Below, piece by piece: positions 1 to 49,612 of a stretch of DNA of 64,000 bases. Made by a program: the position numbers and the translations under genes. The first letter of the stretch is position 1, and each line of letters starts with the position of its first letter. Source of the DNA: Protonemura montana (taxonomy: Eukaryota; Arthropoda; Insecta; Plecoptera; Nemouridae); assembly GCA_947568835.1 (NCBI GenBank), contig OX387603.1, positions 29,040,651 through 29,104,650 of the forward strand. The letters are read 5' to 3'. Under the pieces are notes generated by a model, which made no database searches, was not told the DNA's origin, and saw only the letters and a list, made by a program, of their open reading frames with translations.

Positions 1-3000
1 GAATCTTTGTCCTCGCTTTGCAGGATGATGTGGGTAGCTGGCGGTGCTTGCTTCAGTGTCTGTGATCACGTACCCCACCATCAGTGGTCTTGTCTTGATG
101 TGTAACTCTGATGAATCTTTGTCCTCGCTTTGCAGGATGATGTGGGTAGCTGGCGGTGCTTGCTTCAGTGTCTGTGATCACGTACCCCACCATCAGTGGT
201 CTTGTCTTGATGTGTAACTCTGATGAATCTTTGTCCTCGCTTTGCAGGATGATGTGGGTAGCTGGCGGTGCTTGCTTCAGTGTCTGTGATCACGTACCCC
301 ACCATCAGTGGTCTTGTCTTGATGTGTAACTCTGATGAATCTTTGTCCTCGCTTTGCAGGATGATGTGGGTAGCTGGCGTGCTTGCTTCAGTGTCTGTGA
401 TCACGTACCCCACCATCAGTGGTCTTGTCTTGATGTGTAACTCTGATGAATCTTTGTCCTCGCTTTGCAGGATGATGTGGGTAGCTGGCGGTGCTTGCTT
501 CAGTGTCTGTGATCACGTACCCCACCATCAGTGGTCTTGTCTTGATGTGTAACTCTGATGAATCTTTGTCCTCGCTTTGCAGGATGATGTGGGTAGCTGG
601 CGGTGCTTGCTTCAGTGTCTGTGATCACGTACCCCACCATCAGTGGTCTTGTCTTGATGTGTAACTCTGATGAATCTTTGTCCTCGCTTTGCAGGATGAT
701 GTGGGTAGCTGGCGGTGCTTGCTTCAGTGTCTGTGATCACGTACCCCACCATCAGTGGTCTTGTCTTGATGTGTAACTCTGATGAATCTTTGTCCTCGCT
801 TTGCAGGATGATGTGGGTAGCTGGCGGTGCTTGCTTCAGTGTCTGTGATCACGTACCCCACCATCAGTGGTCTTGTCTTGATGTTTAACTCTGATGAATC
901 TTTGTCCTCGCTTTGCAGGATGATGTGGGTAGCTGGCGGTGCTTGCTTCAGTGTCTGTGATCACGTACCCCACCATCAGTGGTTTTGTCTTGATGTGTAA
1001 CTCTGATGAATCTTTGTCCTCGCTTTGCAGGATGATGTGGGTAGCTGGCGGTGCTTGCTTCAGTGTCTGTGATCACGTACCCCACCATCAGTGGTCTTGT
1101 CTTGATGTGTAACTCTGATGAATCTTTGTCCTCGCTTTGCAGGATGATGTGGGTAGCTGGCGGTGCTTGCTTCAGTGTCTGTGATCACGTACCCCACCAT
1201 CAGTGGTCTTGTCTTGATGTGTAACTCTGATGAATCTTTGTCCTCGCTTTGCAGGATGATGTGGGTAGCTGGCGGTGCTTGCTTCAGTGTCTGTGATCAC
1301 GTACCCCACCATCAGTGGTCTTGTCTTGATGTGTAACTCTGATGAATCTTTGTCCTCGCTTTGCAGGATGATGTGGGTAGCTGGCGGTGCTTGCTTCAGT
1401 GTCTGTGATCACGTACCCCACCATCAGTGGTCTTGTCTTGATGTGTAACTCTGATGAAACTTTGTCCTCGCTTTGCAGGATGATGTGGGTAGCTGGCGGT
1501 GCTTGCTTCAGTGTCTGTGATCACGTACCCCACCATCAGTGGTCTTGTCTTGATGTGTAACTCTGATGAATCTTTGTCCTCGCTTTGCAGGATGAGGTGG
1601 GTAGCTGGCGGTGCTTGCTTCAGTGTCTGTGATCACGTACCCCACCATCAGTGGTCTTGTCTTGATGTGTAACTCTGATGAATCTTTGTCCTCGCTTTGC
1701 AGGATGATGTGGGTAGCTGGCGGTGCTTGCTTCAGTGTCTGTGATCACGTACCCCACCATCAGTGGTTTTGTCTTGATGTGTAACTCTGATGAATCTTTG
1801 TCCTCGCTTTGCAGGATGATGTGGGTAGCTGGCGGTGCTTGCTTCAGTGTCTGTGATCACGTACCCCACCATCAGTGGTCTTGTCTTGATGTGTAACTCT
1901 GATGAATCTTTGTCCTCGCTTTGCAGGATGATGTGGGTAGCTGGCGGTGCTTGCTTCAGTGTCTGTGATCACGTACCCCACCATCAGTGGTTTTGTCTTG
2001 ATGTGTAACTCTGATGAATCTTTGTCCTCGCTTTGCAGGATGATGTGGGTAGCTGGCGGTGCTTGCTTCAGTGTCTGTGATCACGTACCCCACCATCAGT
2101 GGTCTTGTCTTGATGTGTAACTCTGATGAATCTTTGTCCTCGCTTTGCAGGATGAGGTGGGTAGCTGGCGGTGCTTGTTTCAGTGTCTGTGATCACTTAC
2201 CCCACCATCAGTGGTCTTGTCTTGATGTGTAACTCTGATGAATCTTTGTCCTCGCTTTGCAGGATGATGTGGGTAGCTGGCGGTGCTTGCTTCAGTGTCT
2301 GTGATCACGTACCCCACCATCAGTGGTCTTGTCTTGATGTGTAACTCTGATGAATCTTTGTCCTCGCTTTGCAGGATGATGTGGGCAGCTGGCGGTGCTT
2401 GCTGCAGTGTCTGTGATCACGTACCCCACCATCAGTGGTTTTGTCTTGATGTGTAACTCTGATGAATCTTTGTCCTCGCTTTGCAGGATAATGTGGGTAG
2501 CTGGCGGTGCTTGCTTCAGTGTCTGTGATCACGTACCCCACCATCAGTGGTCTTGTCTTGATGTGTAACTCTGATGAATCTTTGTCCTCGCTTTGCAGGA
2601 TGATGTGGGTAGCTGGCGGTGCTTGCTTCAGTGTCTGTGATCACGTACCCCACCATCAGTGGTCTTGTCTTGATGTGTAACTCTGATGAATCTTTGTCCT
2701 CGCTTTGCAGGATGATGTGGGTAGCTGGCGGTGCTTGCTTCAGTGTCTGTGATCACGTACCCCACCATCAGTGGTCTTGTCTTGATGTGTAACTCTGATG
2801 AATCTTTGTCCTCGCTTTGCAGGATGATGTGGGTAGCTGGCGGTGCTTGCTTCAGTGTCTGTGATCACGTACCCCACCATCAGTGGTCTTGTCTTGATGT
2901 GTAACTCTGATGAATCTTTGTCCTCGCTTTGCAGGATGATGTGGGTAGCTGGCGGTGCTTGCTTCAGTGTCTGTGATCACGTACCCCACCATCAGTGGTC

Positions 3001-6000
3001 TTGTCTTGATGTGTAACTCTGATGAATCTTTGTCCTCGCTTTGCAGGATGATGTGGGTAGCTGGCGGTGCTTGCTTCAGTGTCTGTGATCACGTACCCCA
3101 CCATCAGTGGTCTTGTCTTGATGTTTAACTCTGATGAATCTTTGTCCTCGCTTTGCAGGATGATGTGGGTAGCTGGCGGTGCTTGCTTCAGTGTCTGTGA
3201 TCACGTACCCCACCATCAGTGGTCTTGTCTTGATGTGTAACTCTGATGAATCTTTGTCCTCGCTTTGCAGGATGATGTGGGTAGCTGGCGGTGCTTGCTT
3301 CAGTGTCTGTGATCACGTACCCCACCATCAGTGGTCTTGTCTTGATGTGTAACTCTGATGAATCTTTGTCCTCGCTTTGCAGGATGATGTGGGTAGCTGG
3401 CGGTGCTTGCTTCAGTGTCTGTGATCACGTACCCCACCATCAGTGGTCTTGTCTTGATGTGTAACTCTGATGAATCTTTGTCCTCGCTTTGCAGGATGAT
3501 GTGGGTAGCTGGCGGTGCTTGCTTCAGTGTCTGTGATCACGTACCCCACCATCAGTGGTCTTGTCTTGATGTGTAACTCTGATGAATCTTTGTCCTCGCT
3601 TTGCAGGATGAGGTGGGTAGCTGGCGGTGCTTGCTTCAGTGTCTGTGATCACGTACCCCACCATCAGTGGTCTTGTCTTGATGTGTAACTCTGATGAATC
3701 TTTGTCCTCGCTTTGCAGGATGATGTGGGTAGCTGGCGGTGCTTGCTTCAGTGTCTGTGATCACGTACCCCACCATCAGTGGTTTTGTCTTGATGTGTAA
3801 CTCTGATGAATCTTTGTCCTCGCTTTGCAGGATGATGTGGGTAGCTGGCGGTGCTTGCTTCAGTGTCTGTGATCACGTACCCCACCATCAGTGGTCTTGT
3901 CTTGATGTGTAACTCTGATGAATCTTTGTCCTCGCTTTGCAGGATGATGTGGGTAGCTGGCGGTGCTTGCTTCAGTGTCTGTGATCACGTACCCCACCAT
4001 CAGTGGTTTTGTCTTGATGTGTAACTCTGATGAATCTTTGTCCTCGCTTTGCAGGATGATGTGGGTAGCTGGCGGTGCTTGCTTCAGTGTCTGTGATCAC
4101 GTACCCCACCATCAGTGGTCTTGTCTTGATGTGTAACTCTGATGAATCTTTGTCCTCGCTTTGCAGGATGAGGTGGGTAGCTGGCGGTGCTTGCTTCAGT
4201 GTCTGTGATCACTTACCCCACCATCAGTGGTCTTGTCTTGATGTGTAACTCTGATGAATCTTTGTCCTCGCTTTGCAGGATGATGTGGGTAGCTGGCGGT
4301 GCTTGCTTCAGTGTCTGTGATCACGTACCCCACCATCAGTGGTCTTGTCTTGATGTGTAACTCTGATGAATCTTTGTCCTCGCTTTGCAGGATGATGTGG
4401 GCAGCTGGCGGTGCTTGCTGCAGTGTCTGTGATCACGTACCCCACCATCAGTGGTTTTGTCTTGATGTGTAACTCTGATGAATCTTTGTCCTCGCTTTGC
4501 AGGATAATGTGGGTAGCTGGCGGTGCTTGCTTCAGTGTCTGTGATCACGTACCCCACCATCAGTGGTCTTGTCTTGATGTGTAACTCTGATGAATCTTTG
4601 TCCTCGCTTTGCAGGATGATGTGGGTAGCTGGCGGTGCTTGCTTCAGTGTCTGTGATCACGTACCCCACCATCAGTGGTCTTGTCTTGATGTGTAACTCT
4701 GATGAATCTTTGTCCTCGCTTTGCAGGATGATGTGGGTAGCTGGCGGTGCTTGCTTCAGTGTCTGTGATCACGTACCCCACCATCAGTGGTCTTGTCTTG
4801 ATGTGTAACTCTGATGAATCTTTGTCCTCGCTTTGCAGGATGATGTGGGTAGCTGGCGTGCTTGCTTCAGTGTCTGTGATCACGTACCCCACCATCAGTG
4901 GTCTTGTCTTGATGTGTAACTCTGATGAATCTTTGTCCTCGCTTTGCAGGATGATGTGGGTAGCTGGCGGTGCTTGCTTCAGTGTCTGTGATCACGTACC
5001 CCACCATCAGTGGTCTTGTCTTGATGTGTAACTCTGATGAATCTTTGTCCTCGCTTTGCAGGATGATGTGGGTAGCTGGCGGTGCTTGCTTCAGTGTCTG
5101 TGATCACGTACCCCACCATCAGTGGTCTTGTCTTGATGTGTAACTCTGATGAATCTTTGTCCTCGCTTTGCAGGATGATGTGGGTAGCTGGCGGTGCTTG
5201 CTTCAGTGTCTGTGATCACGTACCCCACCATCAGTGGTCTTGTCTTGATGTTTAACTCTGATGAATCTTTGTCCTCGCTTTGCAGGATGATGTGGGTAGC
5301 TGGCGGTGCTTGCTTCAGTGTCTGTGATCACGTACCCCACCATCAGTGGTCTTGTCTTGATGTGTAACTCTGATGAATCTTTGTCCTCGCTTTGCAGGAT
5401 GATGTGGGTAGCTGGCGGTGCTTGCTTCAGTGTCTGTGATCACGTACCCCACCATCAGTGGTCTTGTCTTGATGTGTAACTCTGATGAATCTTTGTCCTC
5501 GCTTTGCAGGATGATGTGGGTAGCTGGCGGTGCTTGCTTCAGTGTCTGTGATCACGTACCCCACCATCAGTGGTCTTGTCTTGATGTGTAACTCTGATGA
5601 ATCTTTGTCCTCGCTTTGCAGGATGATGTGGGTAGCTGGCGGTGCTTGCTTCAGTGTCTGTGATCACGTACCCCACCATCAGTGGTCTTGTCTTGATGTG
5701 TAACTCTGATGAAACTTTGTCCTCGCTTTGCAGGATGATGTGGGTAGCTGGCGGTGCTTGCTTCAGTGTCTGTGATCACGTACCCCACCATCAGTGGTCT
5801 TGTCTTGATGTGTAACTCTGATGAATCTTTGTCCTCGCTTTGCAGGATGAGGTGGGTAGCTGGCGGTGCTTGCTTCAGTGTCTGTGATCACGTACCCCAC
5901 CATCAGTGGTCTTGTCTTGATGTGTAACTCTGATGAATCTTTGTCCTCGCTTTGCAGGATGATGTGGGTAGCTGGCGGTGCTTGCTTCAGTGTCTGTGAT

Positions 6001-9000
6001 CACGTACCCCACCATCAGTGGTTTTGTCTTGATGTGTAACTCTGATGAATCTTTGTCCTCGCTTTGCAGGATGATGTGGGTAGCTGGCGGTGCTTGCTTC
6101 AGTGTCTGTGATCACGTACCCCACCATCAGTGGTCTTGTCTTGATGTGTAACTCTGATGAATCTTTGTCCTCGCTTTGCAGGATGATGTGGGTAGCTGGC
6201 GGTGCTTGCTTCAGTGTCTGTGATCACGTACCCCACCATCAGTGGTCTTGTCTTGATGTGTAACTCTGATGAATCTTTGTCCTCGCTTTGCAGGATGATG
6301 TGGGTAGCTGGCGGTGCTTGCTTCAGTGTCTGTGATCACGTACCCCACCATCAGTGGTTTTGTCTTGATGTGTAACTCTGATGAATCTTTGTCCTCGCTT
6401 TGCAGGATGATGTGGGTAGCTGGCGGTGCTTGCTTCAGTGTCTGTGATCACGTACCCCACCATCAGTGGTCTTGTCTTGATGTGTAACTCTGATGAATCT
6501 TTGTCCTCGCTTTGCAGGATGAGGTGGGTAGCTGGCGGTGCTTGCTTCAGTGTCTGTGATCACGTACCCCACCATCAGTGGTCTTGTCTTGATGTGTAAC
6601 TCTGATGAATCTTTGTCCTCGCTTTGCAGGATGATGTGGGTAGCTGGCGGTGCTTGCTTCAGTGTCTGTGATCACGTACCCCACCATCAGTGGTTTTGTC
6701 TTGATGTGTAACTCTGATGAATCTTTGTCCTCGCTTTGCAGGATGATGTGGGCAGCTGGCGGTGCTTGCTTCAGTGTCTGTGATCACGTACCCCACCATC
6801 AGTGGTCTTGTCTTGATGTGTAACTCTGATGAATCTTTGTCCTCGCTTTGCAGGATGATGTGGGTAGCTGGCGTGCTTGCTTCAGTGTCTGTGATCACGT
6901 ACCCCACCATCAGTGGTCTTGTCTTGATGTGTAACTCTGATGAATCTTTGTCCTCGCTTTGCAGGATGATGTGGGTAGCTGGCGGTGCTTGCTTCAGTGT
7001 CTGTGATCACGTACCCCACCATCAGTGGTCTTGTCTTGATGTGTAACTCTGATGAATCTTTGTCCTCGCTTTGCAGGATGATGTGGGTAGCTGGCGGTGC
7101 TTGCTTCAGTGTCTGTGATCACGTACCCCACCATCAGTGGTCTTGTCTTGATGTGTAACTCTGATGAATCTTTGTCCTCGCTTTGCAGGATGATGTGGGT
7201 AGCTGGCGTGCTTGCTTCAGTGTCTGTGATCACGTACCCCACCATCAGTGGTCTTGTCTTGATGTGTAACTCTGATGAATCTTTGTCCTCGCTTTGCAGG
7301 ATGATGTGGGTAGCTGGCGGTGCTTGCTTCAGTGTCTGTGATCACGTACCCCACCATCAGTGGTCTTGTCTTGATGTGTAACTCTGATGAATCTTTGTCC
7401 TCGCTTTGCAGGATGATGTGGGTAGCTGGCGTTGCTTGCTTCAGTGTCTGTGATCACGTACCCCACCATCAGTGGTCTTGTCTTGATGTGTAACTCTGAT
7501 GAATCTTTGTCCTCGCTTTGCAGGATGATGTGGGTAGCTGGCGGTGCTTGCTTCAGTGTCTGTGATCACGTACCCCACCATCAGTGGTCTTGTCTTGATG
7601 TTTAACTCTGATGAATCTTTGTCCTCGCTTTGCAGGATGATGTGGGTAGCTGGCGGTGCTTGCTTCAGTGTCTGTGATCACGTACCCCACCATCAGTGGT
7701 CTTGTCTTGATGTGTAACTCTGATGAATCTTTGTCCTCGCTTTGCAGGATGATGTGGGTAGCTGGCGGTGCTTGCTTCAGTGTCTGTGATCACGTACCCC
7801 ACCATCAGTGGTCTTGTCTTGATGTGTAACTCTGATGAATCTTTGTCCTCGCTTTGCAGGATGATGTGGGTAGCTGGCGGTGCTTGCTTCAGTGTCTGTG
7901 ATCACGTACCCCACCATCAGTGGTCTTGTCTTGATGTGTAACTCTGATGAATCTTTGTCCTCGCTTTGCAGGATGATGTGTGTAGCTGGCGGTGCTTGCT
8001 TCAGTGTCTGTGATCACGTACCCCACCATCAGTGGTCTTGTCTTGATGTGTAACTCTGATGAAACTTTGTCCTCGCTTTGCAGGATGATGTGGGTAGCTG
8101 GCGGTGCTTGCTTCAGTGTCTGTGATCACGTACCCCACCATCAGTGGTCTTGTCTTGATGTGTAACTCTGATGAATCTTTGTCCTCGCTTTGCAGGATGA
8201 GGTGGGTAGCTGGCGGTGCTTGCTTCAGTGTCTGTGATCACGTACCCCACCATCAGTGGTCTTGTCTTGATGTGTAACTCTGATGAATCTTTGTCCTCGC
8301 TTTGCAGGATGATGTGGGTAGCTGGCGGTGCTTGCTTCAGTGTCTGTGATCACGTACCCCACCATCAGTGGTCTTGTCTTGATGTGTAACTCTGATGAAT
8401 CTTTGTCCTCGCTTTGCAGGATGATGTGGGTAGCTGGCGTGCTTGCTTCAGTGTCTGTGATCACGTACCCCACCATCAGTGGTCTTGTCTTGATGTGTAA
8501 CTCTGATGAATCTTTGTCCTCGCTTTGCAGGATGATGTGGGTAGCTGGCGGTGCTTGCTTCAGTGTCTGTGATCACGTACCCCACCATCAGTGGTCTTGT
8601 CTTGATGTGTAACTCTGATGAATCTTTGTCCTCGCTTTGCAGGATGATGTGGGTAGCTGGCGGTGCTTGCTTCAGTGTCTGTGATCACGTACCCCACCAT
8701 CAGTGGTCTTGTCTTGATGTGTAACTCTGATGAATCTTTGTCCTCACTTTGCAGGATGATGTGGGCAGCTGGCGGTGCTTGCTTCAGTGTCTGTGATCAC
8801 GTACCCCACCATCAGTGGTTTTGTCTTGATGTGTAACTCTGATGAATCTTTGTCCTCGCTTTGCAGGATGATGTGGGTAGCTGGCGGTGCTTGCTTCAGT
8901 GTCTGTGATCACGTACCCCACCATCAGTGGTCTTGTCTTGATGTGTAACTCTGATGAATCTTTGTCCTCGCTTTGCAGGATGATGTGGGTAGCTGGCGGT

Positions 9001-10208
9001 GCTTGCTTCAGTGTCTGTGATCACATACCCCACCATCAGTGGTCTTGTCTTGATGTGTAACTCTGATGAAACTTTGTCCTCGCTTTGCAGGATGATGTGG
9101 GTAGCTGGCGGTGCTTGCTTCAGTGTCTGTGATCACGTACCCCACCATCAGTGGTCTTGTCTTGATGTGTAACTCTGATGAATCTTTGTCCTCGCTTTGC
9201 AGGATGAGGTGGGTAGCTGGCGGTGCTTGCTTCAGTGTCTGTGATCACGTACCCCACCATCAGTGGTCTTGTCTTGATGTGTAACTCTGATGAATCTTTG
9301 TCCTCGCTTTGCAGGATGATGTGGGTAGCTGGCGGTGCTTGCTTCAGTGTCTGTGATCACGTACCCCACCATCAGTGGTCTTGTCTTGATGTGTAACTCT
9401 GATGAATCTTTGTCCTCGCTTTGCAGGATGATGTGGGTAGCTGGCGGTGCTTGCTTCAGTGTCTGTGATCACGTACCCCACCATCAGTGGTCTTGTCTTG
9501 ATGTGTAACTCTGATGAATCTTTGTCCTCACTTTGCAGGATGATGTGGGCAGCTGGCGGTGCTTGCTTCAGTGTCTGTGATCACGTACCCCACCATCAGT
9601 GGTTTTGTCTTGATGTGTAACTCTGATGAATCTTTGTCCTCGCTTTGCAGGATGATGTGGGTAGCTGGCGGTGCTTGCTTCAGTGTCTGTGATCACGTAC
9701 CCCACCATCAGTGGTCTTGTCTTGATGTGTAACTCTGATGAATCTTTGTCCTCGCTTTGCAGGATGATGTGGGTAGCTGGCGGTGCTTGCTGCAGTGTCT
9801 GTGATCACGTACCCCACCATCAGTGGTCTTGTCTTGATGTGTAACTCTGATGAATCTTTGTCCTCGCTTTGCAGGATGATGTGGGTAGCTGGCGTGCTTG
9901 CTTCAGTGTCTGTGATCACGTACCCCACCATCAGTGGTCTTGTCTTGATGTGTAACTCTGATGAATCTTTGTCCTCGCTTTGCAGGATGATGTGGGTAGC
10001 TGGCGGTGCTTGCTTCAGTGTCTGTGATCACACACCCACCATCAGTGGTTTTGTCTTGATGTGTAACTCTGATGAATCTTTGTCCTCGCTTTGCAGGATG
10101 ATGTGGGTAGCTGGCGGTGCTTGCTTCAGTGTCTGTGATCACGTACCCCACCATCAGTGGTTTTGTCTTGATGTGTAACTCTGATGAATCTTTGTCCTCG
10201 CTTTGCAG
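1..10208 (+). repeat. 112-bp splice-acceptor minisatellite ('mirage'-type), about 91 units
   Basis: A tandem array with a 112-bp unit runs from the window edge up to the MFSD14 exon at 10209. Ninety-one complete units fit between 24 and 10208: 91 x 112 minus seven 1-bp-short units equals the observed 10,185 bp. Each unit begins with a near copy of the first ~90 nt of the downstream exon (GATGATGTGGGTAGCTGGCG onward). It then has a branch-point-like CTGAT, a pyrimidine-rich tract and TTTGCAG, so it is a complete 3' splice-site cassette. Most units carry one extra G after GGCG; six do not (near 376, 4855, 6870, 7205, 8436, 9891). Recurrent point variants (GATGAGG, ATGTTTAAC, GAAACTT, GGTTTTG, CACTTAC) recur in the same order, showing higher-order duplication. 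The array is open at the left edge, so its full length is unknown. Confidence 0.97.
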
Positions 10209-10416
10209 GATGATGTGGGTAGCTGGCGTGCTTGCTTCAGTGTCTGCGATTACGTACCCTGCCATCAGTGCGTTCGTCTCAATGCACTCAGATGCAGACA
10301 AACAAGGTCTCGTGCAAGGAATGGTCACTGGAATGCGCGGACTTTGCAACGGCCTGGGACCAGCCATGTTTGGTCTCATCTTCTACTTGTTCCACGTTGA
10401 TCTCTACGAGGATAAG
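10209..10416 (+). CDS. MFSD14A: MFSD14 (HIAT1)-like transporter, internal coding exon
   Basis: This exon encodes a late transmembrane region of an MFSD14/HIAT1 major-facilitator family protein. The frame opens with a split codon (one G) and then reads MMWVAGVLASVSAITYPAIS. Further on come SDADKQGLVQGMVTGMRGL and CNGLGPAMFGLIFYLFHV, which match the vertebrate HIAT1 block (QGVVQGMITGIRGLCNGLGP, from memory). The 5' border follows TTTGCAG and the 3' border is AAG|gtaact, phase 0. This is the last and only divergent copy of the 5' segment that is repeated 91 times upstream. It alone continues into conserved coding sequence, so it is taken as the genuine exon. MFSD14 proteins are multi-pass membrane proteins of endosome or Golgi; their substrate is not settled. 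The 5' exons lie outside the window. Whether this is orthologous to vertebrate MFSD14A or B cannot be decided; invertebrates probably have one gene. Confidence 0.9.
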
Positions 10417-10922: not shown

Positions 10923-11159
10923 AGATTAAGGAAAAAACCGGGTGTAGCTGTATCTCATTGATATGGCCGATATTTAAGCGTGACTACGTTCAACTACCGC
11001 ATAGGCACGTAGGTCAACTACAGTACTGACCGCACTTCACATGCAAGTTTTACATCTCTCTTTATTTGGGTAGTGTTTTCATATCTAATTTACATGCTGA
11101 AGGACTTTACAGATTGGGATGAAAGTGTCATCTTGCGATATATATATTATTTTTTTCCA

Positions 11160-12660
11160 TTAGTCTACTGACGAGTGCCAAAAACGCTGCCTCCTCTCAC
11201 GCCTCCAATATTTATTTTATCGAAAATAAAAAAAAGTACTTTTAGAGAATTGTCTAAACTATTAAACGATAATAAGTCGCAGACTGTCCTTTGTTTCCTG
11301 TAGGCTGTAGGGGTTGTTACACATTTGCCATTTTGCGTAATTTAACATTGGTCTTATGGAGAGCATTAAAAACGCCAACCCCTCTAACGCCTCCAATATT
11401 TATTTTATCGAAAATAAAAAAAAAGTACTTTTAGAGAATTGTCTGAACTATTGAATGATTATAAGTCGCAATCTGTCCTTTGTTTCCTGTAGGCTGTAGG
11501 GGTTGTTACACATTTGCCATTTTGCGTAATTTAACATTGGTCTTATGGAGAGCATTCAAAACGCCAACCCCTCTAACACCTCCAATATTTATTTTATCGA
11601 AAATAAAAAAAAAGTACTTTTAGAGAATTGTCTAAACTATTAAACGATAATAAGTCGCATTCTGTCCTTTGTTTCCTGTAGGCTGTAGGGGTTGTTACAC
11701 ATTTGCCATTTTGCGTAATTTAACATTGGTCTTATGGAGAGCATTAAAAACGCCAACCCCTCTAACGCCTCCAATATTTATTTTATCGAAAATAAAAAAA
11801 AAGTGCTTTTAGAGAATTGTCTGAACTATTGAATGATAATAAGTCGCATTCTGTCCGTTGTTTCCTGTAGGCTGTAGGGGTTGTTACACATTTGCCATTT
11901 TGCGTAATTTAACATTGGTCTTATGGAGAGCATTAAAAACGCCAACCCCTCTAACGCCTCCAATATTTATTTTATCGAAAATAAAAAAAAAGTACTTTTA
12001 GAGAATTGTCTGAACTATTGAATGATAATAAGTCGCATTTTGTCCTTTGTTTCCTGTAGGCTGTAGGGGTTGTTACACATTTGCCATTTTGCGTAATTTA
12101 ACATTGGTCTTATGGAGAGCATTAAAAACGCCAACCCCTCTAACGCCTCCAATATTTATTTTATCGAAAATCAAAAAAAAGTGCTTTTAGAGAATTGTCT
12201 GAACTATTGAATGATAATAAGTCGCATTCTGTCCGTTGTTTCCTGTAGGCTGTAGGGGTTGTTACACATTTGCCATTTTGCGTAATTTAACATTGGTCTT
12301 ATGGAGAGCATTAAAAACGCCAACCCCTCTAACGCCTCCAATATTTATTTTATCGAAAATAAAAAAAAAGTACTTTTAGATAATTGTCTGAGCTATGGAA
12401 TGATAATTAGTCGCATTTTGTCCTTTGTTTCCTGTAGGCTGTAGGGGTTGTTACACATTTGCCATTTTGCGTAATTTAACATTGGTCTTATGGGGAGCAT
12501 TAAAAACGCCAACCCCTCTAACGCCTCCAATATTTATTTTATCGAAAATAAAAAAAAAGTACTTTTAGATAATTGTCTGATTTATTGAATGATAATAAGT
12601 CGAACTCTGTACTTAGCTTCCTGTAGGCTGTAGAGCTTGTTACACATTGGCTATTTTGGA
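11160..12660 (+). repeat. 189-bp tandem repeat, about 8 copies, inside the TIR element
   Basis: The landmark CCTCCAATATTTATTTTATC recurs at 11202, 11390, 11579, 11768, 11957, 12146, 12335 and 12524. The spacing is 188 bp once and then 189 bp each time. Units share CTGTAGGGGTTGTTACACAT and a poly-A stretch of 8-9 bases. The first and last copies are the most diverged, as expected for array edges. The repeat has no coding capacity. Confidence 0.95.
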
Positions 12661-13902: not shown

Positions 13903-14092
13903 GATGTAAACAACATGCTGCTGACCAACAACTCCTCGATGCCCTACGTTGAACCAGTCCGGCCGTTCATACCCGGGCCACCGTTCGTGTTCGGCTCATT
14001 GCTGGTCATCTGCGCTCTCCTGGTCGCTGTCTTCATCCCAGAGGGAGCAGCCATCGGGTCCACGCTGAGGACTCCTTCAAGGAGACATTCCG
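13903..14092 (+). CDS. MFSD14A: MFSD14 (HIAT1)-like transporter, penultimate coding exon
   Basis: The exon lies between GCGTTGCAG and CCG|gtaagt. It enters in phase 0, matching the previous exon, and leaves in phase 1. It encodes DVNNMLLTNNSSMPYVEPV, then IPGPPFVFGSLLVICALLVA with VFIPEG, then a basic tail RTPSRRHSG. The block PGPPFxFG...ALLVAxFIPE is characteristic of the last transmembrane helix of the MFSD14 family (from memory of the human protein). The N-terminal part is a variable loop containing possible N-glycosylation sites (NNSS). The 3' 41 nt of the exon and its donor are copied twice more immediately downstream. The start and end are supported by phase agreement with both neighbouring exons. 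Confidence 0.92.
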
Positions 14093-14252
14093 GTAAGTTG
14101 CCATGCTGTACACTCACACATCTGGTCCACGCTGAGGACTCCTTCAAGGAGACATTCCAGTAAGTTGCCATGCTGTACACCCACACATCTGGTCCACGCT
14201 GAGGACTCCTTCAAGGAGACATTCCGGTAAGTTGCCATGCTGTACACGCAGA
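14052..14252 (+). repeat. 67-bp splice-donor minisatellite, 3 copies
   Basis: TCCACGCTGAGGACTCCTTC begins at 14059, 14126 and 14193, exactly 67 bp apart. Each unit contains the last ~41 nt of the exon plus the 5' splice site (CCGGTAAGTTGCC) and ~25 nt of intron. Copy 2 has CCAGTAAGT, so its GT is kept while the last exonic base changes G to A. The copies are almost identical, which suggests recent duplication. This is the donor-side counterpart of the acceptor array at the upstream exon. Confidence 0.95.
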
Positions 14253-14456
14253 CATCTGCAAAATTAATTATTATTATTACTTTTTTTTTTTTTTTTTTAA
14301 TTTAATTTGAATTTAAAATATTATTGAAAATTAAATTAAAAAAAAAATTTAGTTTGACAGAAAGGTGCCTTTTTGAAGAAATATCACATTTCAATTTCAA
14401 TCTGTTTGTGTATCTTTTAAAGTAAAATATCAGGGTTTGATAAGAAATGTATTTGA
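14253..14456. other. AT-rich intron spacer
   Basis: Short AT-rich sequence with an 18-19-base T run near 14280 lies between the donor array and the 26-bp array. Nothing else was recognised. Confidence 0.6.
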
Positions 14457-17400
14457 TGTTTAACCAAGTGTATACCTGGCCATGTTTAACCAAGTGTATA
14501 CCTGACCATGTTTAACCAAGTGTATACCTAGCTATGTTTAACCAAGTGTATACCTAGCCATGTTTAACCAAGTGTATACCTGACCATGTTTAACCAAGTG
14601 TATACCTGGCTATGTTTAACCAAGTGTATACCTGGCCATGTTTAACCAAGTGTATACCTAGCTATGTTTAACCAAGTGTATACCTGGCCATGTTTAACCA
14701 AGTGTATACCTAGCCATGTTTAACCAAGTGTATACCTGGCCATGTTTAACCAAGTGTATACCTGGCCATGTTTAACCAAGTGTATACCTGGCCATGTTTA
14801 ACCAAGTGTATACCTGGCCATGTTTAACCAAGTGTATACCTAGCCATGTTTAACCAAGTGTATACCTGGCTATGTTTAACCAAGTGTATACCTGGCCATG
14901 TTTAACCAAGTGTATACCTGACCATGTTTAACCAAGTGTATACCTGACCATGTTTAACCAAGTGTATACCTGGCTATGTTTAACCAAGTGTATACCTGGC
15001 TATGTTTAACCAAGTGTATACCTGGCCATGTTTAACCAAGTGTATACCTAGCTATGTTTAACCAAGTGTATACCTAGCTATGTTTAACCAAGTGTATACC
15101 TGGCTATGTTTAACCAAGTGTATACCTGGCTATGTTTAACCAAGTGTATACCTGGCTATGTTTAACCAAGTGTATACCTAGCTATGTTTAACCAAGTGTA
15201 TACCTAGCCATGTTTAACCAAGTGTATACCTGGCCATGTTTAACCAAGTGTATACCTGGCTATGTTTAACCAAGTGTATACCTGGCCATGTTTAACCAAG
15301 TGTATACCTGGCCATGTTTAACCAAGTGTATACCTGGCTATGTTTAACCAAGTGTATACCTGGCTATGTTTAACCAAGTGTATACCTGGCCATGTTTAAC
15401 CAAGTGTATACCTGGCTATGTTTAACCAAGTGTATACCTGACCATGTTTAACCAAGTGTATACCTGGCCATGTTTAACCAAGTGTATACCTAGCCATGTT
15501 TAACCAAGTGTATACCTGGCTATGTTTAACCAAGTGTATACCTAGCCATGTTTAACCAAGTGTATACCTAGCCATGTTTAACCAAGTGTATACCTGGCCA
15601 TGTTTAACCAAGTGTATACCTGGCCATGTTTAACCAAGTGTATACCTGGCTATGTTTAACCAAGTGTATACCTGGCTATGTTTAACCAAGTGTATACCTA
15701 GCTATGTTTAACCAAGTGTATACCTAGCCATGTTTAACCAAGTGTATACCTGGCCATGTTTAACCAAGTGTATACCTGGCCATGTTTAACCAAGTGTATA
15801 CCTGGCTATGTTTAACCAAGTGTATACCTGGCTATGTTTAACCAAGTGTATACCTAGCCATGTTTAACCAAGTGTATACCTGGCCATGTTTAACCAAGTG
15901 TATACCTGACTATGTTTAACCAAGTGTATACCTGGCTATGTTTAACCAAGTGTATACCTGGCTATGTTTAACCAAGTGTATACCTGGCTATGTTTAACCA
16001 AGTGTATACCTGGCCATGTTTAACCAAGTGTATACCTAGCCATGTTTAACCAAGTGTATACCTGGCCATGTTTAACCAAGTGTATACCTGGCCATGTTTA
16101 ACCAAGTGTATACCTGGCCATGTTTAACCAAGTGTATACCTGGCTATGTTTAACCAAGTGTATACCTGGCCATGTTTAACCAAGTGTATACCTAGCCATG
16201 TTTAACCAAGTGTATACCTGGCCATGTTTAACCAAGTGTATACCTGACCATGTTTAACCAAGTGTATACCTGGCTATGTTTAACCAAGTGTATACCTGGC
16301 CATGTTTAACCAAGTGTATACCTGACCATGTTTAACCAAGTGTATACCTAGCCATGTTTAACCAAGTGTATACCTGGCCATGTTTAACCAAGTGTATACC
16401 TAGCCATGTTTAACCAAGTGTATACCTAGCTATGTTTAACCAAGTGTATACCTGGCCATGTTTAACCAAGTGTATACCTGGCTATGTTTAACCAAGTGTA
16501 TACCTGGCTATGTTTAACCAAGTGTATACCTGGCTATGTTTAACCAAGTGTATACCTGGCTATGTTTAACCAAGTGTATACCTGGCCATGTTTAACCAAG
16601 TGTATACCTAGCTATGTTTAACCAAGTGTATACCTAGCCATGTTTAACCAAGTGTATACCTGGCTATGTTTAACCAAGTGTATACCTGGCTATGTTTAAC
16701 CAAGTGTATACCTGGCCATGTTTAACCAAGTGTATACCTGGCTATGTTTAACCAAGTGTATACCTGGCTATGTTTAACCAAGTGTATACCTGGCTATGTT
16801 TAACCAAGTGTATACCTGGCCATGTTTAACCAAGTGTATACCTAGCCATGTTTAACCAAGTGTATACCTGGCCATGTTTAACCAAGTGTATACCTAGCCA
16901 TGTTTAACCAAGTGTATACCTGGCTATGTTTAACCAAGTGTATACCTGGCCATGTTTAACCAAGTGTATACCTGGCTATGTTTAACCAAGTGTATACCTG
17001 ACCATGTTTAACCAAGTGTATACCTGGCCATGTTTAACCAAGTGTATACCTAGCTATGTTTAACCAAGTGTATACCTGGCTATGTTTAACCAAGTGTATA
17101 CCTGACCATGTTTAACCAAGTGTATACCTGGCCATGTTTAACCAAGTGTATACCTGACCATGTTTAACCAAGTGTATACCTGGCCATGTTTAACCAAGTG
17201 TATACCTGGCCATGTTTAACCAAGTGTATACCTGGCCATGTTTAACCAAGTGTATACCTGGCCATGTTTAACCAAGTGTATACCTGGCTATGTTTAACCA
17301 AGTGTATACCTGGCCATGTTTAACCAAGTGTATACCTGGCTATGTTTAACCAAGTGTATACCTGGCCATGTTTAACCAAGTGTATACCTGGCTATGTTTA

Positions 17401-20400
17401 ACCAAGTGTATACCTGGCCATGTTTAACCAAGTGTATACCTGGCTATGTTTAACCAAGTGTATACCTGGCTATGTTTAACCAAGTGTATACCTGGCCATG
17501 TTTAACCAAGTGTATACCTAGCCATGTTTAACCAAGTGTATACCTAGCCATGTTTAACCAAGTGTATACCTAGCTATGTTTAACCAAGTGTATACCTGGC
17601 CATGTTTAACCAAGTGTATACCTGGCCATGTTTAACCAAGTGTATACCTAGCTATGTTTAACCAAGTGTATACCTGGCTATGTTTAACCAAGTGTATACC
17701 TGGCCATGTTTAACCAAGTGTATACCTGGCCATGTTTAACCAAGTGTATACCTGGCCATGTTTAACCAAGTGTATACCTGGCCATGTTTAACCAAGTGTA
17801 TACCTGGCCATGTTTAACCAAGTGTATACCTGGCTATGTTTAACCAAGTGTATACCTGGCCATGTTTAACCAAGTGTATACCTGGCCATGTTTAACCAAG
17901 TGTATACCTGACTATGTTTAACCAAGTGTATACCTGGCTATGTTTAACCAAGTGTATACCTGGCCATGTTTAACCAAGTGTATACCTGGCTATGTTTAAC
18001 CAAGTGTATACCTGGCTATGTTTAACCAAGTGTATACCTGGCTATGTTTAACCAAGTGTATACCTGGCCATGTTTAACCAAGTGTATACCTGACCATGTT
18101 TAACCAAGTGTATACCTGGCCATGTTTAACCAAGTGTATACCTGGCTATGTTTAACCAAGTGTATACCTGGCTATGTTTAACCAAGTGTATACCTGGCCA
18201 TGTTTAACCAAGTGTATACCTAGCCATGTTTAACCAAGTGTATACCTGGCTATGTTTAACCAAGTGTATACCTGGCCATGTTTAACCAAGTGTATACCTG
18301 GCCATGTTTAACCAAGTGTATACCTGACCATGTTTAACCAAGTGTATACCTAGCCATGTTTAACCAAGTGTATACCTGGCCATGTTTAACCAAGTGTATA
18401 CCTGGCCATGTTTAACCAAGTGTATACCTGACCATGTTTAACCAAGTGTATACCTGGCCATGTTTAACCAAGTGTATACCTGGCCATGTTTAACCAAGTG
18501 TATACCTGGCTATGTTTAACCAAGTGTATACCTGGCTATGTTTAACCAAGTGTATACCTGACCATGTTTAACCAAGTGTATACCTGGCTATGTTTAACCA
18601 AGTGTATACCTGGCCATGTTTAACCAAGTGTATACCTGGCTATGTTTAACCAAGTGTATACCTGACCATGTTTAACCAAGTGTATACCTGGCTATGTTTA
18701 ACCAAGTGTATACCTGGCTATGTTTAACCAAGTGTATACCTGGCCATGTTTAACCAAGTGTATACCTGGCTATGTTTAACCAAGTGTATACCTGGCCATG
18801 TTTAACCAAGTGTATACCTGGCTATGTTTAACCAAGTGTATACCTGGCTATGTTTAACCAAGTGTATACCTAGCCATGTTTAACCAAGTGTATACCTGGC
18901 TATGTTTAACCAAGTGTATACCTGGCCATGTTTAACCAAGTGTATACCTGGCCATGTTTAACCAAGTGTATACCTAGCTATGTTTAACCAAGTGTATACC
19001 TAGCCATGTTTAACCAAGTGTATACCTGGCTATGTTTAACCAAGTGTATACCTGGCTATGTTTAACCAAGTGTATACCTAGCCATGTTTAACCAAGTGTA
19101 TACCTGGCTATGTTTAACCAAGTGTATACCTGGCTATGTTTAACCAAGTGTATACCTGACCATGTTTAACCAAGTGTATACCTGGCTATGTTTAACCAAG
19201 TGTATACCTGGCCATGTTTAACCAAGTGTATACCTGGCTATGTTTAACCAAGTGTATACCTGACCATGTTTAACCAAGTGTATACCTGGCTATGTTTAAC
19301 CAAGTGTATACCTGGCTATGTTTAACCAAGTGTATACCTGGCCATGTTTAACCAAGTGTATACCTGGCTATGTTTAACCAAGTGTATACCTGGCCATGTT
19401 TAACCAAGTGTATACCTGGCTATGTTTAACCAAGTGTATACCTGGCTATGTTTAACCAAGTGTATACCTAGCCATGTTTAACCAAGTGTATACCTGGCTA
19501 TGTTTAACCAAGTGTATACCTGGCCATGTTTAACCAAGTGTATACCTGGCCATGTTTAACCAAGTGTATACCTGGCCATGTTTAACCAAGTGTATACCTA
19601 GCTATGTTTAACCAAGTGTATACCTAGCCATGTTTAACCAAGTGTATACCTGGCCATGTTTAACCAAGTGTATACCTGGCTATGTTTAACCAAGTGTATA
19701 CCTGGCTATGTTTAACCAAGTGTATACCTGGCCATGTTTAACCAAGTGTATACCTGGCCATGTTTAACCAAGTGTATACCTGGCTATGTTTAACCAAGTG
19801 TATACCTGGCTATGTTTAACCAAGTGTATACCTGGCCATGTTTAACCAAGTGTATACCTGGCCATGTTTAACCAAGTGTATACCTGGCTATGTTTAACCA
19901 AGTGTATACCTGGCTATGTTTAACCAAGTGTATACCTAGCTATGTTTAACCAAGTGTATACCTGGCCATGTTTAACCAAGTGTATACCTGGCCATGTTTA
20001 ACCAAGTGTATACCTGGCCATGTTTAACCAAGTGTATACCTGGCCATGTTTAACCAAGTGTATACCTGGCTATGTTTAACCAAGTGTATACCTAGCTATG
20101 TTTAACCAAGTGTATACCTAGCTATGTTTAACCAAGTGTATACCTGGCCATGTTTAACCAAGTGTATACCTGGCTATGTTTAACCAAGTGTATACCTAGC
20201 TATGTTTAACCAAGTGTATACCTGGCTATGTTTAACCAAGTGTATACCTGGCCATGTTTAACCAAGTGTATACCTGACCATGTTTAACCAAGTGTATACC
20301 TGGCTATGTTTAACCAAGTGTATACCTAGCCATGTTTAACCAAGTGTATACCTAGCTATGTTTAACCAAGTGTATACCTAGCCATGTTTAACCAAGTGTA

Positions 20401-23400
20401 TACCTGGCCATGTTTAACCAAGTGTATACCTGGCCATGTTTAACCAAGTGTATACCTGGCTATGTTTAACCAAGTGTATACCTGGCTATGTTTAACCAAG
20501 TGTATACCTGGCCATGTTTAACCAAGTGTATACCTGGCTATGTTTAACCAAGTGTATACCTGGCTATGTTTAACCAAGTGTATACCTGGCTATGTTTAAC
20601 CAAGTGTATACCTGGCTATGTTTAACCAAGTGTATACCTGGCTATGTTTAACCAAGTGTATACCTAGCTATGTTTAACCAAGTGTATACCTAGCTATGTT
20701 TAACCAAGTGTATACCTAGCCATGTTTAACCAAGTGTATACCTAGCCATGTTTAACCAAGTGTATACCTAGCCATGTTTAACCAAGTGTATACCTGGCTA
20801 TGTTTAACCAAGTGTATACCTGGCTATGTTTAACCAAGTGTATACCTAGCCATGTTTAACCAAGTGTATACCTGGCTATGTTTAACCAAGTGTATACCTG
20901 ACCATGTTTAACCAAGTGTATACCTGGCCATGTTTAACCAAGTGTATACCTGGCTATGTTTAACCAAGTGTATACCTGGCCATGTTTAACCAAGTGTATA
21001 CCTAGCTATGTTTAACCAAGTGTATACCTGGCCATGTTTAACCAAGTGTATACCTAGCTATGTTTAACCAAGTGTATACCTGGCCATGTTTAACCAAGTG
21101 TATACCTAGCCATGTTTAACCAAGTGTATACCTGGCTATGTTTAACCAAGTGTATACCTGGCCATGTTTAACCAAGTGTATACCTGGCTATGTTTAACCA
21201 AGTGTATACCTGGCCATGTTTAACCAAGTGTATACCTGACCATGTTTAACCAAGTGTATACCTGGCTATGTTTAACCAAGTGTATACCTAGCCATGTTTA
21301 ACCAAGTGTATACCTGGCCATGTTTAACCAAGTGTATACCTAGCTATGTTTAACCAAGTGTATACCTAGCCATGTTTAACCAAGTGTATACCTGGCCATG
21401 TTTAACCAAGTGTATACCTGGCTATGTTTAACCAAGTGTATACCTGGCCATGTTTAACCAAGTGTATACCTGGCCATGTTTAACCAAGTGTATACCTGAC
21501 CATGTTTAACCAAGTGTATACCTGGCTATGTTTAACCAAGTGTATACCTGGCCATGTTTAACCAAGTGTATACCTGGCCATGTTTAACCAAGTGTATACC
21601 TGGCCATGTTTAACCAAGTGTATACCTGGCTATGTTTAACCAAGTGTATACCTGACCATGTTTAACCAAGTGTATACCTAGCTATGTTTAACCAAGTGTA
21701 TACCTGGCCATGTTTAACCAAGTGTATACCTGGCTATGTTTAACCAAGTGTATACCTGGCCATGTTTAACCAAGTGTATACCTGGCTATGTTTAACCAAG
21801 TGTATACCTGGCTATGTTTAACCAAGTGTATACCTACCCATGTTTAACCAAGTGTATACCTGGCCATGTTTAACCAAGTGTATACCTGGCTATGTTTAAC
21901 CAAGTGTATACCTGGCTATGTTTAACCAAGTGTATACCTGGCCATGTTTAACCAAGTGTATACCTAGCCATGTTTAACCAAGTGTATACCTGGCTATGTT
22001 TAACCAAGTGTATACCTGGCCATGTTTAACCAAGTGTATACCTAGCCATGTTTAACCAAGTGTATACCTGACCATGTTTAACCAAGTGTATACCTGGCCA
22101 TGTTTAACCAAGTGTATACCTGGCCATGTTTAACCAAGTGTATACCTGACTATGTTTAACCAAGTGTATACCTGACCATGTTTAACCAAGTGTATACCTG
22201 GCTATGTTTAACCAAGTGTATACCTGGCTATGTTTAACCAAGTGTATACCTGGCCATGTTTAACCAAGTGTATACCTGGCTATGTTTAACCAAGTGTATA
22301 CCTAGCTATGTTTAACCAAGTGTATACCTAGCTATGTTTAACCAAGTGTATACCTGGCCATGTTTAACCAAGTGTATACCTGGCTATGTTTAACCAAGTG
22401 TATACCTAGCTATGTTTAACCAAGTGTATACCTAGCCATGTTTAACCAAGTGTATACCTGGCTATGTTTAACCAAGTGTATACCTGGCTATGTTTAACCA
22501 AGTGTATACCTAGCCATGTTTAACCAAGTGTATACCTGACCATGTTTAACCAAGTGTATACCTAGCCATGTTTAACCAAGTGTATACCTGGCCATGTTTA
22601 ACCAAGTGTATACCTGGCCATGTTTAACCAAGTGTATACCTGGCCATGTTTAACCAAGTGTATACCTAGCCATGTTTAACCAAGTGTATACCTGGCCATG
22701 TTTAACCAAGTGTATACCTGGCCATGTTTAACCAAGTGTATACCTAGCCATGTTTAACCAAGTGTATACCTGGCTATGTTTAACCAAGTGTATACCTGAC
22801 CATGTTTAACCAAGTGTATACCTGGCCATGTTTAACCAAGTGTATACCTGGCCATGTTTAACCAAGTGTATACCTGACCATGTTTAACCAAGTGTATACC
22901 TGGCTATGTTTAACCAAGTGTATACCTGGCTATGTTTAACCAAGTGTATACCTAGCTATGTTTAACCAAGTGTATACCTGGCCATGTTTAACCAAGTGTA
23001 TACCTGACTATGTTTAACCAAGTGTATACCTAGCTATGTTTAACCAAGTGTATACCTGACCATGTTTAACCAAGTGTATACCTGACCATGTTTAACCAAG
23101 TGTATACCTGGCTATGTTTAACCAAGTGTATACCTGGCTATGTTTAACCAAGTGTATACCTGGCCATGTTTAACCAAGTGTATACCTGGCTATGTTTAAC
23201 CAAGTGTATACCTGGCTATGTTTAACCAAGTGTATACCTAGCTATGTTTAACCAAGTGTATACCTAGCTATGTTTAACCAAGTGTATACCTAGCCATGTT
23301 TAACCAAGTGTATACCTAGCCATGTTTAACCAAGTGTATACCTAGCCATGTTTAACCAAGTGTATACCTAGCCATGTTTAACCAAGTGTATACCTGGCCA

Positions 23401-26400
23401 TGTTTAACCAAGTGTATACCTAGCCATGTTTAACCAAGTGTATACCTGGCCATGTTTAACCAAGTGTATACCTGGCCATGTTTAACCAAGTGTATACCTG
23501 ACCATGTTTAACCAAGTGTATACCTGGCCATGTTTAACCAAGTGTATACCTGGCCATGTTTAACCAAGTGTATACCTGGCCATGTTTAACCAAGTGTATA
23601 CCTAGCTATGTTTAACCAAGTGTATACCTGGCCATGTTTAACCAAGTGTATACCTGACCATGTTTAACCAAGTGTATACCTGGCTATGTTTAACCAAGTG
23701 TATACCTGACCATGTTTAACCAAGTGTATACCTGGCCATGTTTAACCAAGTGTATACCTGGCTATGTTTAACCAAGTGTATACCTGGCCATGTTTAACCA
23801 AGTGTATACCTGACCATGTTTAACCAAGTGTATACCTAGCTATGTTTAACCAAGTGTATACCTAGCCATGTTTAACCAAGTGTATACCTGGCTATGTTTA
23901 ACCAAGTGTATACCTGGCCATGTTTAACCAAGTGTATACCTAGCCATTTTTAACCAAGTGTATACCTGGCCATGTTTAACCAAGTGTATACCTGGCTATG
24001 TTTAACCAAGTGTATACCTGGCCATGTTTAACCAAGTGTATACCTGGCCATGTTTAACCAAGTGTATACCTAGCCATTTTTAACCAAGTGTATACCTGGC
24101 CATGTTTAACCAAGTGTATACCTGGCTATGTTTAACCAAGTGTATACCTAGCTATGTTTAACCAAGTGTATACCTGGCTATGTTTAACCAAGTGTATACC
24201 TGGCCATGTTTAACCAAGTGTATACCTAGCCATGTTTAACCAAGTGTATACCTGGCCATGTTTAACCAAGTGTATACCTGGCTATGTTTAACCAAGTGTA
24301 TACCTAGCCATGTTTAACCAAGTGTATACCTGGCTATGTTTAACCAAGTGTATACCTAGCCATGTTTAACCAAGTGTATACCTGGCCATGTTTAACCAAG
24401 TGTATACCTGGCCATGTTTAACCAAGTGTATACCTGGCTATGTTTAACCAAGTGTATACCTGGCTATGTTTAACCAAGTGTATACCTGGCCATGTTTAAC
24501 CAAGTGTATACCTAGCTATGTTTAACCAAGTGTATACCTGGCTATGTTTAACCAAGTGTATACCTAGCTATGTTTAACCAAGTGTATACCTGGCCATGTT
24601 TAACCAAGTGTATACCTGGCTATGTTTAACCAAGTGTATACCTAGCCATGTTTAACCAAGTGTATACCTAGCTATGTTTAACCAAGTGTATACCTGGCCA
24701 TGTTTAACCAAGTGTATACCTGGCCATGTTTAACCAAGTGTATACCTAGCCATGTTTAACCAAGTGTATACCTGGCTATGTTTAACCAAGTGTATACCTG
24801 GCCATGTTTAACCAAGTGTATACCTAGCCATGTTTAACCAAGTGTATACCTGGCCATGTTTAACCAAGTGTATACCTGACCATGTTTAACCAAGTGTATA
24901 CCTGGCCATGTTTAACCAAGTTTATACCTGGCCATGTTTAACCAAGTGTATACCTGGCTATGTTTAACCAAGTGTATACCTAGCCATGTTTAACCAAGTG
25001 TATACCTGGCTATGTTTAACCAAGTGTATACCTAGCTATGTTTAACCAAGTGTATACCTGGCCATGTTTAACCAAGTGTATACCTGGCCATGTTTAACCA
25101 AGTGTATACCTGGCTATGTTTAACCAAGTGTATACCTAGCCATGTTTAACCAAGTGTATACCTGGCTATGTTTAACCAAGTGTATACCTAGCCATGTTTA
25201 ACCAAGTGTATACCTAGCCATGTTTAACCAAGTGTATACCTAGCCATGTTTAACCAAGTGTATACCTGGCCATGTTTAACCAAGTGTATACCTGGCTATG
25301 TTTAACCAAGTGTATACCTGGCCATGTTTAACCAAGTGTATACCTGGCCATGTTTAACCAAGTGTATACCTGGCCATGTTTAACCAAGTGTATACCTGGC
25401 TATGTTTAACCAAGTGTATACCTGGCCATGTTTAACCAAGTGTATACCTGGCTATGTTTAACCAAGTGTATACCTAGCTATGTTTAACCAAGTGTATACC
25501 TGGCTATGTTTAACCAAGTGTATACCTGGCCATGTTTAACCAAGTGTATACCTGGCTATGTTTAACCAAGTGTATACCTGGCCATGTTTAACCAAGTGTA
25601 TACCTGGCTATGTTTAACCAAGTGTATACCTGGCTATGTTTAACCAAGTGTATACCTGGCCATGTTTAACCAAGTGTATACCTGGCTATGTTTAACCAAG
25701 TGTATACCTGGCTATGTTTAACCAAGTGTATACCTGACCATGTTTAACCAAGTGTATACCTGACCATGTTTAACCAAGTGTATACCTGGCTATGTTTAAC
25801 CAAGTGTATACCTGGCTATGTTTAACCAAGTGTATACCTGGCCATGTTTAACCAAGTGTATACCTAGCCATGTTTAACCAAGTGTATACCTGGCTATGTT
25901 TAACCAAGTGTATACCTGGCCATGTTTAACCAAGTGTATACCTGGCCATGTTTAACCAAGTGTATACCTGGCCATGTTTAACCAAGTGTATACCTAGCCA
26001 TGTTTAACCAAGTGTATACCTGACCATGTTTAACCAAGTGTATACCTGGCCATGTTTAACCAAGTGTATACCTGGCTATGTTTAACCAAGTGTATACCTA
26101 GCCATGTTTAACCAAGTGTATACCTGGCCATGTTTAACCAAGTGTATACCTGGCTATGTTTAACCAAGTGTATACCTGGCCATGTTTAACCAAGTGTATA
26201 CCTGGCTATGTTTAACCAAGTGTATACCTAGCCATGTTTAACCAAGTGTATACCTGGCTATGTTTAACCAAGTGTATACCTAGCCATGTTTAACCAAGTG
26301 TATACCTGGCCATGTTTAACCAAGTGTATACCTGGCCATGTTTAACCAAGTGTATACCTGGCCATGTTTAACCAAGTGTATACCTGACCATGTTTAACCA

Positions 26401-48932: not shown

Positions 48933-49612
48933 TGCACGGTTTGGCGAGTTGGAAACACCTGCTCTCATGAGATCACCAAAGGTAAGCAACACTGCGCTGG
49001 GTCAGGTATTGGATGGGTGACCATCATACACATGACCAGTTCTGTTCGGGAGAGAGGTTGGAGGGATGATAGTTAAGCAACACTGCCCTGGGTCAGGTAT
49101 TGAATGGGTGACCATCATACACATGACCAGTTCTGTTCGGGAGAGAGGTTGGAGGGATGATAGTTAAGCAACACTGCCCTGGGTCAGGTATTGGATGGGT
49201 GACCATCATACACATGACCAGTTCTGTTCAGGAGAGAGGTTGGAGGGATGAAAGTTAAGCAACACTGCGCTGATTCAGGTATTGGATGTGTGACCATCAT
49301 ACACATGACCAGTTCTGTTCGGGAGAGAGGTTGTAGGGATCAAAGATAGTATAGCAACTTCACTCGCCTTGCTTATCAACCTCTCGACAGCATGGATTTG
49401 TGGAGAAATCCTGTTGTTCGCGTTGTACCGTCCTTCGGAAGGGACGTTCAGCCATTGGTCCCCTTGGTGTTTTTCGACAGAAGTAGGCACTGGGTTTCTG
49501 CTCCTCCTTTCTAGGCTAGTAACCTCTCATTCACCGACGCCATTAGACCAGTGCCGCATGGCAAGATGTCAAAACTAAACGTTGTTAAACACCACAAATA
49601 AATCAATAAAAA
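48933..49612 (+). mobile_element. 5S rRNA-derived SINE-like element with amplified head
   Basis: The head CTCATGAGATCACCAAAGGT, AAGCAACACTG and TATTGGATGGGTGACCATCA lines up with the 5S rRNA region containing its internal promoter (A-box TTAAGCAAC, C-box TGGATGGGTGACC). The 91-bp segment carrying these boxes is repeated four times. A body follows with CAACCTCTCGACAGCATGGA and the hairpin-forming CCGTCCTTCGGAAGGGACG. The 3' end is AT-rich (AAATAAATCAATAAAAA). A second element with the same order of parts lies at 62973-63680. The combination of a 5S head, a shared body and an A-rich tail fits a SINE3-type retroposon. The family name is not assigned, and the exact 5' and 3' ends are approximate. 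Confidence 0.72.
48982..49335 (+). repeat. 91-bp tandem repeat of 5S promoter segment, 4 copies
   Basis: AAGCAACACTG recurs at about 48983, 49075, 49166 and 49256, close to 91 bp apart. Each unit has the 5S-like A and C boxes and then ACATGACCAGTTCTGTTCGG and GAGAGAGGTTGGAGGGAT. The last copy is the most diverged (GATTCAGG, GGATGTGTGACC). Confidence 0.92.

Follow-up and report, generated by a model that had tools for sequence, protein, structure and literature searches.

The window analysed here is a stretch of 64,000 nt (OX387603.1, 29,040,651–29,104,650), to which 40 kb of upstream DNA were added to follow a tandem array past the left edge; bases upstream of the window start are given negative coordinates. 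Eight coding exons of an MFSD14-like transporter were placed in this region, and when joined they encode 444 residues without a stop codon; one or more last coding exons after exon 8 were not found. Pfam MFS_1 matched residues 19–363 (129.9 bits) and spans codon 312, where exons 6 and 7 join, and the major facilitator fold, TetA-like, expected of an MFSD14/HIAT1 protein was thus found. The nearest NCBIfam model was tet_MFS_A_B_C_D (TetA-type efflux) at 128.4 bits, far under its cut-off of 475, and the sole PDB match of the transporter was MFSD10 (32.8 bits). The name MFSD14/HIAT1 is our assumption from sequence motifs together with the general MFS match, and junction conservation is likewise presumed. 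The coordinates of the gene and its repeats are collected in Table 1.

Table 1. Features of the MFSD14-like gene and its repeats, in window coordinates.
Feature	Position	Strand	Basis or remark
Exon 1	-16153..-16040	+	Frame and GT-AG junctions; start of first coding exon uncertain
Exon 2	-12048..-11986	+	Frame and GT-AG junctions
Exon 3	-10844..-10602	+	Frame and GT-AG junctions
Exon 4	-8421..-8203	+	Frame and GT-AG junctions
Exon 4 donor array, 71-bp unit	-8209..-6145	+	29 GTGAGT donors; outside window
Exon 5	-5880..-5722	+	Frame and GT-AG junctions
Inverted repeat, left arm, 189-bp units	-3797..-2071		Minus-strand match to right arm
Exon 6	-2044..-1908	+	Frame and GT-AG junctions; outside window
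Acceptor array	-1600..10270 (window part 1..10270)	+	Tandem Repeats Finder, unit splitting, pattern search
Authentic intron 6 3' splice-site module	10179..10208	+	CTCTGAT branch-like motif, GAATCTTTGTCCTCGCTTTGCAG; reading frame
Exon 7 (208 nt)	10209..10416	+	In-frame join to exon 6
Inverted repeat, right arm, 189-bp units	10933..12658	+	1.7-kb inverted repeat
Exon 8	13903..14092	+	Frame and GT-AG junctions
Exon 8 donor array, 67-bp x 3	14052..14258	+	Three ACATTCC[A/G]GTAAGT copies; Tandem Repeats Finder
26-bp x about 1136 array	14456..43997 (29.5 kb)	.	After exon 8, purely non-exonic

Within the window, Tandem Repeats Finder reported 91.8 copies of a 112-bp unit with 98% matches, and with the upstream DNA included the array amounts to 106.1 copies. 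When cut at the acceptor it yields 106 units (99 measure 112 bp and 7 measure 111 bp), which comprise 19 distinct sequences, the commonest accounting for 56 of the 106. A 27-base pattern of acceptor and exon start was searched in the whole 258-Mb genome (34 contigs) with up to two mismatches and gave 106 forward and 0 reverse matches, all inside the array, where 92 fall within the window and 14 lie upstream of it; the same pattern read backwards, used as a control, had no match genome-wide. The tandem acceptor array is a non-chance feature. An earlier note had counted 91 extra acceptors in the window, a number returned by both the unit splitting and the 27-base pattern, and since the array passes the left edge the total of decoy acceptors is 105, with one real site among the 106. 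The same note took the authentic acceptor for the last of 92 near-identical ones; the reading frame strongly implies that the real acceptor is indeed the one before 10209, but the set has 106 members in all. Mean pairwise identity among the first 105 units was 0.990 (4774 same-length pairs), the minimum of 0.75 being an ungapped comparison of two 111-bp forms with different deletions. Along the array the 19 variants are ordered as a mosaic, and the cluster displays the concerted evolution, with the boundary unit left out, that marks the "mirages" of amphioxus.

Each unit combines a branch-like CTCTGAT, a run rich in pyrimidines and TTTGCAG with some 86 nt that derive from the 5' end of exon 7. 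The branch-like motif and the AG stand at a fixed place in 106/106 copies with no AG between them, and the pyrimidine stretch occurs as GAATC.. in 100 copies, as GAAAC.. in 4 and with a single G to A change in 2. The tandemly repeated 3' splice-site modules of the earlier note were thereby borne out, the exon part being 86 aligned nt where about 90 had been given. Two further hallmarks of mirages are present, namely a unit with both intron and exon sequence (the intron end and 86 exon nt) and splice signals within the units. Because every copy carries the same branch-like motif and AG with no AG between, local signals cannot discriminate among them. Each branch-like motif belongs to the exon-derived end of the unit before it, which for the authentic module is the last decoy; the real acceptor would therefore itself rely on array sequence if the motif is used. 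Selection against the decoy signals was considered and rejected, as 2 of 15 variable sites fall in the 30-nt splice module (P = 0.19 for two or fewer), which is no departure from chance.

The unit and exon 7 differ over the 86 aligned exon bases by 12 substitutions and one 3-base gap. Over its first 38 nt exon 7 matches the in-frame 111-bp form of the unit at every base, and divergence appears only after nt 38 (P = 2.2e-4 for zero differences in this part under an even spread). On a simple reading, homogenisation would extend through the acceptor 38 nt into coding exon 7. If it does reach the exon, a single conversion event would suffice to bring any of about 98 frame-breaking units into the coding sequence.

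The outcome of decoy use was predicted by joining every acceptor to exons 1–6 and reading as far as 10416, the donor of exon 7, and onward into exon 8. All 105 decoys gave a premature stop, as the earlier note had expected of an upstream acceptor, though the stop after ..DV within the 112-bp form that it described applies to 98 of them and the other 7 stop later: the stop falls 27 codons in (..CLDV) for the 98, 64 codons in for 6 and 101 codons in for 1. Relative to exon 7 the 112-bp form carries an additional G, and 98 of the 105 decoy units are of this frame-breaking form; six type-D 111-bp units keep the exon frame, so that reading passes through the unit and stops in a later one. Over the 105 decoys, the smallest distance from the stop to the next junction was 238 nt. 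The first decoy lies 363 nt past the donor of exon 6, and transcription reaches it some 11.8 kb ahead of the real acceptor; exon size would be 208 nt with the real site, then 320, 431, 542 nt and up with successive decoys. On the sequence, the splicing machinery would have either to choose the last acceptor or to tolerate errors.

Two further boundary-spanning arrays in the same gene, both composed of donors, had escaped the earlier note, the one at exon 4 lying outside the window and the other following exon 8. The exon 4 unit has only about 6 nt of exon; its real donor is the first of 29, and each of the 28 others leads to a stop. The exon 8 unit includes 37–40 nt of exon and the array holds three GTAAGT donors. 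A 66-bp array at exon 2 begins 20 nt past the donor, which is therefore not spanned, and in total 3 of the 15 boundaries of the MFSD14-like gene are embedded in arrays. In each of the three boundary-spanning arrays, choice of the real site yields the shortest possible exon, which is partly a matter of geometry because the core of the exon has to be unique.

Exons 6 and 7 and the acceptor array are also enclosed by two complementary arms on opposite strands (1728 bp aligned, 96.7% identity). These arms could pair in the transcript, favouring circular RNA or skipping of exons 6 and 7. RNA structure as a means of hiding the decoys was rejected at the level of the unit, as two tandem units folded no better than their shuffles (z 0.30); for the real exon 7 the folding z was −1.72, with 10/200 shuffles equally good.

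Tandem arrays scoring at least 100 cover 192,583 bases, or 61%, of the 314 kb examined, with 33 arrays of at least 1 kb and 7 of at least 5 kb; coverage is 82% in the window and 53% over 256 kb when the two largest arrays at the right end are set aside. At such coverage the acceptor array is one of many, and its origin is fairly explained by an array falling on a splice site by chance. In the neighbouring genes, identified by eye as CCT8-like and RSK-like, none of 23 splice places lies within an array, a rough figure as several acceptors were mechanical nearest-AG picks, and arrays approach to 11–57 nt of several of these places. Downstream of the window, a 46-bp x 49 array at 91973–94251 in the RSK-like gene runs from 15 nt past a donor to near the next exon, and thus fills nearly the whole intron. 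Rfam returned two U5 snRNA matches, at 55555–55672 (−) and 62423–62540 (+), which flank a 36-bp x 183 array. At 48983–49340, 63021–63572 and elsewhere, arrays of 91-bp repeats look similar to 5S rRNA and arrays of 52-bp repeats similar to tRNA; at the gathering threshold Rfam made no call on the 5S-rRNA-like or tRNA-like arrays in the window. Runs of TTAGG, TTAGGG, TCAGG or TTGCA were absent from the contig ends scanned, two of which consist of N only.

The host group was assessed from contig C34 (15,885 bp), a mitochondrial genome taken to be from the same organism as contig C2. Its gene order is I Q M nad2 W C Y cox1 L2 cox2 K D atp8 atp6 cox3 G nad3 A R N S1 E F, followed by nad5 H nad4 nad4L T P nad6 cytb S2 nad1 L1 rrnL V rrnS. 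ARAGORN called 24 tRNAs, of which 22 were used and two dropped (Trp-cca, and Leu-aag, which overlaps cox1); protein genes were named from their translations and the rRNAs were placed by gap. This order, with trnL2 between cox1 and cox2, is what we take to be the insect and crustacean ground pattern. The best PDB match of nad1 was 8b9z at 515.8 bits, an entry presumed to be from Drosophila, with the next match at 323.4 bits. An amphioxus or other cephalochordate host was rejected on the pancrustacean order and the nad1 match.

We consider it probable that the locus is a giant mirage, amplified and homogenised within a working gene, and that its last acceptor is the one used through exon definition. 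It would have originated by a tandem duplication over the intron 6/exon 7 boundary of a working MFSD14-like gene in a minisatellite-crowded pancrustacean genome, followed by amplification and homogenisation to 106 copies. The last acceptor would be favoured because no other lies near the donor of exon 7 and adjoins the exon's unique part. Exon definition would then settle on the smallest exon, the 208-nt one, in preference to those of 320, 431 nt or larger, and the same rule would select the first donor at exons 4 and 8, which are the real donor positions. Stray use of a decoy would give mRNAs with an early stop, which nonsense-mediated decay should clear. In support stand the 444-residue frame, the MFS_1 match across the junction, the stops met from 105/105 decoys and from 28/28 alternative donors of exon 4, and the amphioxus precedents described below. 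According to a survey of 3' splice sites, flanking introns of more than about 250 nt go with preference for the nearest sites across the exon, and in short introns those nearest across the intron pair (PMC9225289). The first decoy, at 363 nt, exceeds this limit for intron definition, so exon definition should favour 10209. The same survey reports that for competing human 3' sites of like strength the upstream preference is reduced under exon definition and not plainly reversed (PMC9225289), so some leakage into the 105 upstream competitors is to be expected, with the proviso that the data are human. These human data weakly back the smallest-exon rule.

A less likely reading is that the decoys are used measurably, the array acting as a splicing sink, unplanned or selected, whose length sets the level of productive MFSD14-like mRNA while nonsense-mediated decay clears the rest. 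Complete signals in all decoys, a module with no sign of mutating away (2/15, P = 0.19), the 98 of 105 decoy units in frame-breaking form and the scope for upstream use left by the survey (PMC9225289) would all suit a sink; homogenisation, however, accounts for the uniformity of the units without selection, and amphioxus mirages are reported to be harmless to regular splicing (PMC3087553; PMC3902484). Extended by conversion, such a sink might serve as rheostat and mutational reservoir at once, decoy use scaling with unit number, conversion carrying the frame-breaking form into the exon and transporter dose following array length from one individual to another, a scenario that we regard as improbable. 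It is equally doubtful that something outside the splice modules, be it the 1.7-kb arms, chromatin or repeat-bound proteins, hides the array and lets it be removed without competition: the opposite-strand arms on either side (1728 aligned bases, 96.7% identity) are suggestive, but exons 6 and 7 lie between them too, which would favour skipping or circular RNA over decoy hiding, and the tandem units show no better folding than shuffles (z 0.30).

Long arrays of near-identical units are difficult to assemble, and over-expansion or misjoining could have produced the array as an artefact. We hold this to be very unlikely, since the 19 unit variants form an ordered mosaic and both flanks connect to the gene in frame and in order, even if the copy number could still be off; the signal of block duplication is weak, with the commonest lag matched 8 times against 7 at the 95% point of the shuffles and a maximum of 9 among 2000. 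A dead gene, in which the splicing of the intron would be irrelevant, might be suspected from three boundary-spanning arrays in one gene and a last exon that was not found. With 444 open codons in eight exons, consensus junctions and an MFS_1 match of 129.9 bits, this has very little probability.

The structure is real and well delimited, of a known kind in an unexpected animal and of unusual scale. New introns might be gained by way of boundary-spanning minisatellites, a proposal made in PMC3087553. With 105 upstream acceptors and two donor arrays, the gene provides a natural experiment in splice-site selection on a scale that is seldom available: first-come-first-served and intron-centred models predict use of the far upstream decoys, and exon definition predicts use of the last acceptor.

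Mirages of the amphioxus Adh3 gene, with length and somatic instability, were reportedly described by Canestro et al. 2002. The likeness to amphioxus mirages suggested in the earlier note was upheld by two papers (PMC3087553, PMC3902484). As described there, mirages are tandem duplications across exon boundaries, with 6 and 3 units of 150–160 bp on the two haplotypes of BflGb6, a duplicated boundary in BflGb9 and units of 10–72 bp in Adh3 (PMC3087553), and regular splicing is reported as undisturbed in the globin and Adh3 cases (PMC3087553; PMC3902484). Lancelet PGBD5 has 60-bp and 108-bp repeats at splice sites, the latter as 3 x 108 bp imperfect copies (PMC3902484). Among the matches listed, none concerned boundary-spanning minisatellites outside cephalochordates, in a search outside which most subscription journals lie; the literature being thus confined, such repeats may arise wherever minisatellites crowd a genome, or may have been overlooked.

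The BflGb6 unit resembles that of the MFSD14-like array in combining the 3' end of an intron with the 5' part of the next exon, and the globin mirages share with it the many units that keep AG/GT signals and the homogenised inner units, with the unit adjoining the real exon excluded. They differ in scale and host, with 6 and 3 units of 150–160 bp compared with 106 of 112 bp in an arthropod-type genome. The Adh3 mirages are likewise boundary-spanning minisatellites, with regular splicing reported intact, but their units measure 10–72 bp rather than 112 bp. PGBD5 is similar in having tandem repeats over both 5' and 3' splice sites in one gene, and differs in its 3 x 108 bp imperfect copies, against 106, 29 and 3 copies here. 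The copy number is far above that reported for the BflGb6, BflGb9 and PGBD5 cases, Adh3 copy numbers standing outside the comparison. By its sequence organisation the array is of the mirage kind, and what is new is its occurrence in another phylum and the presence of both polarities in one gene.
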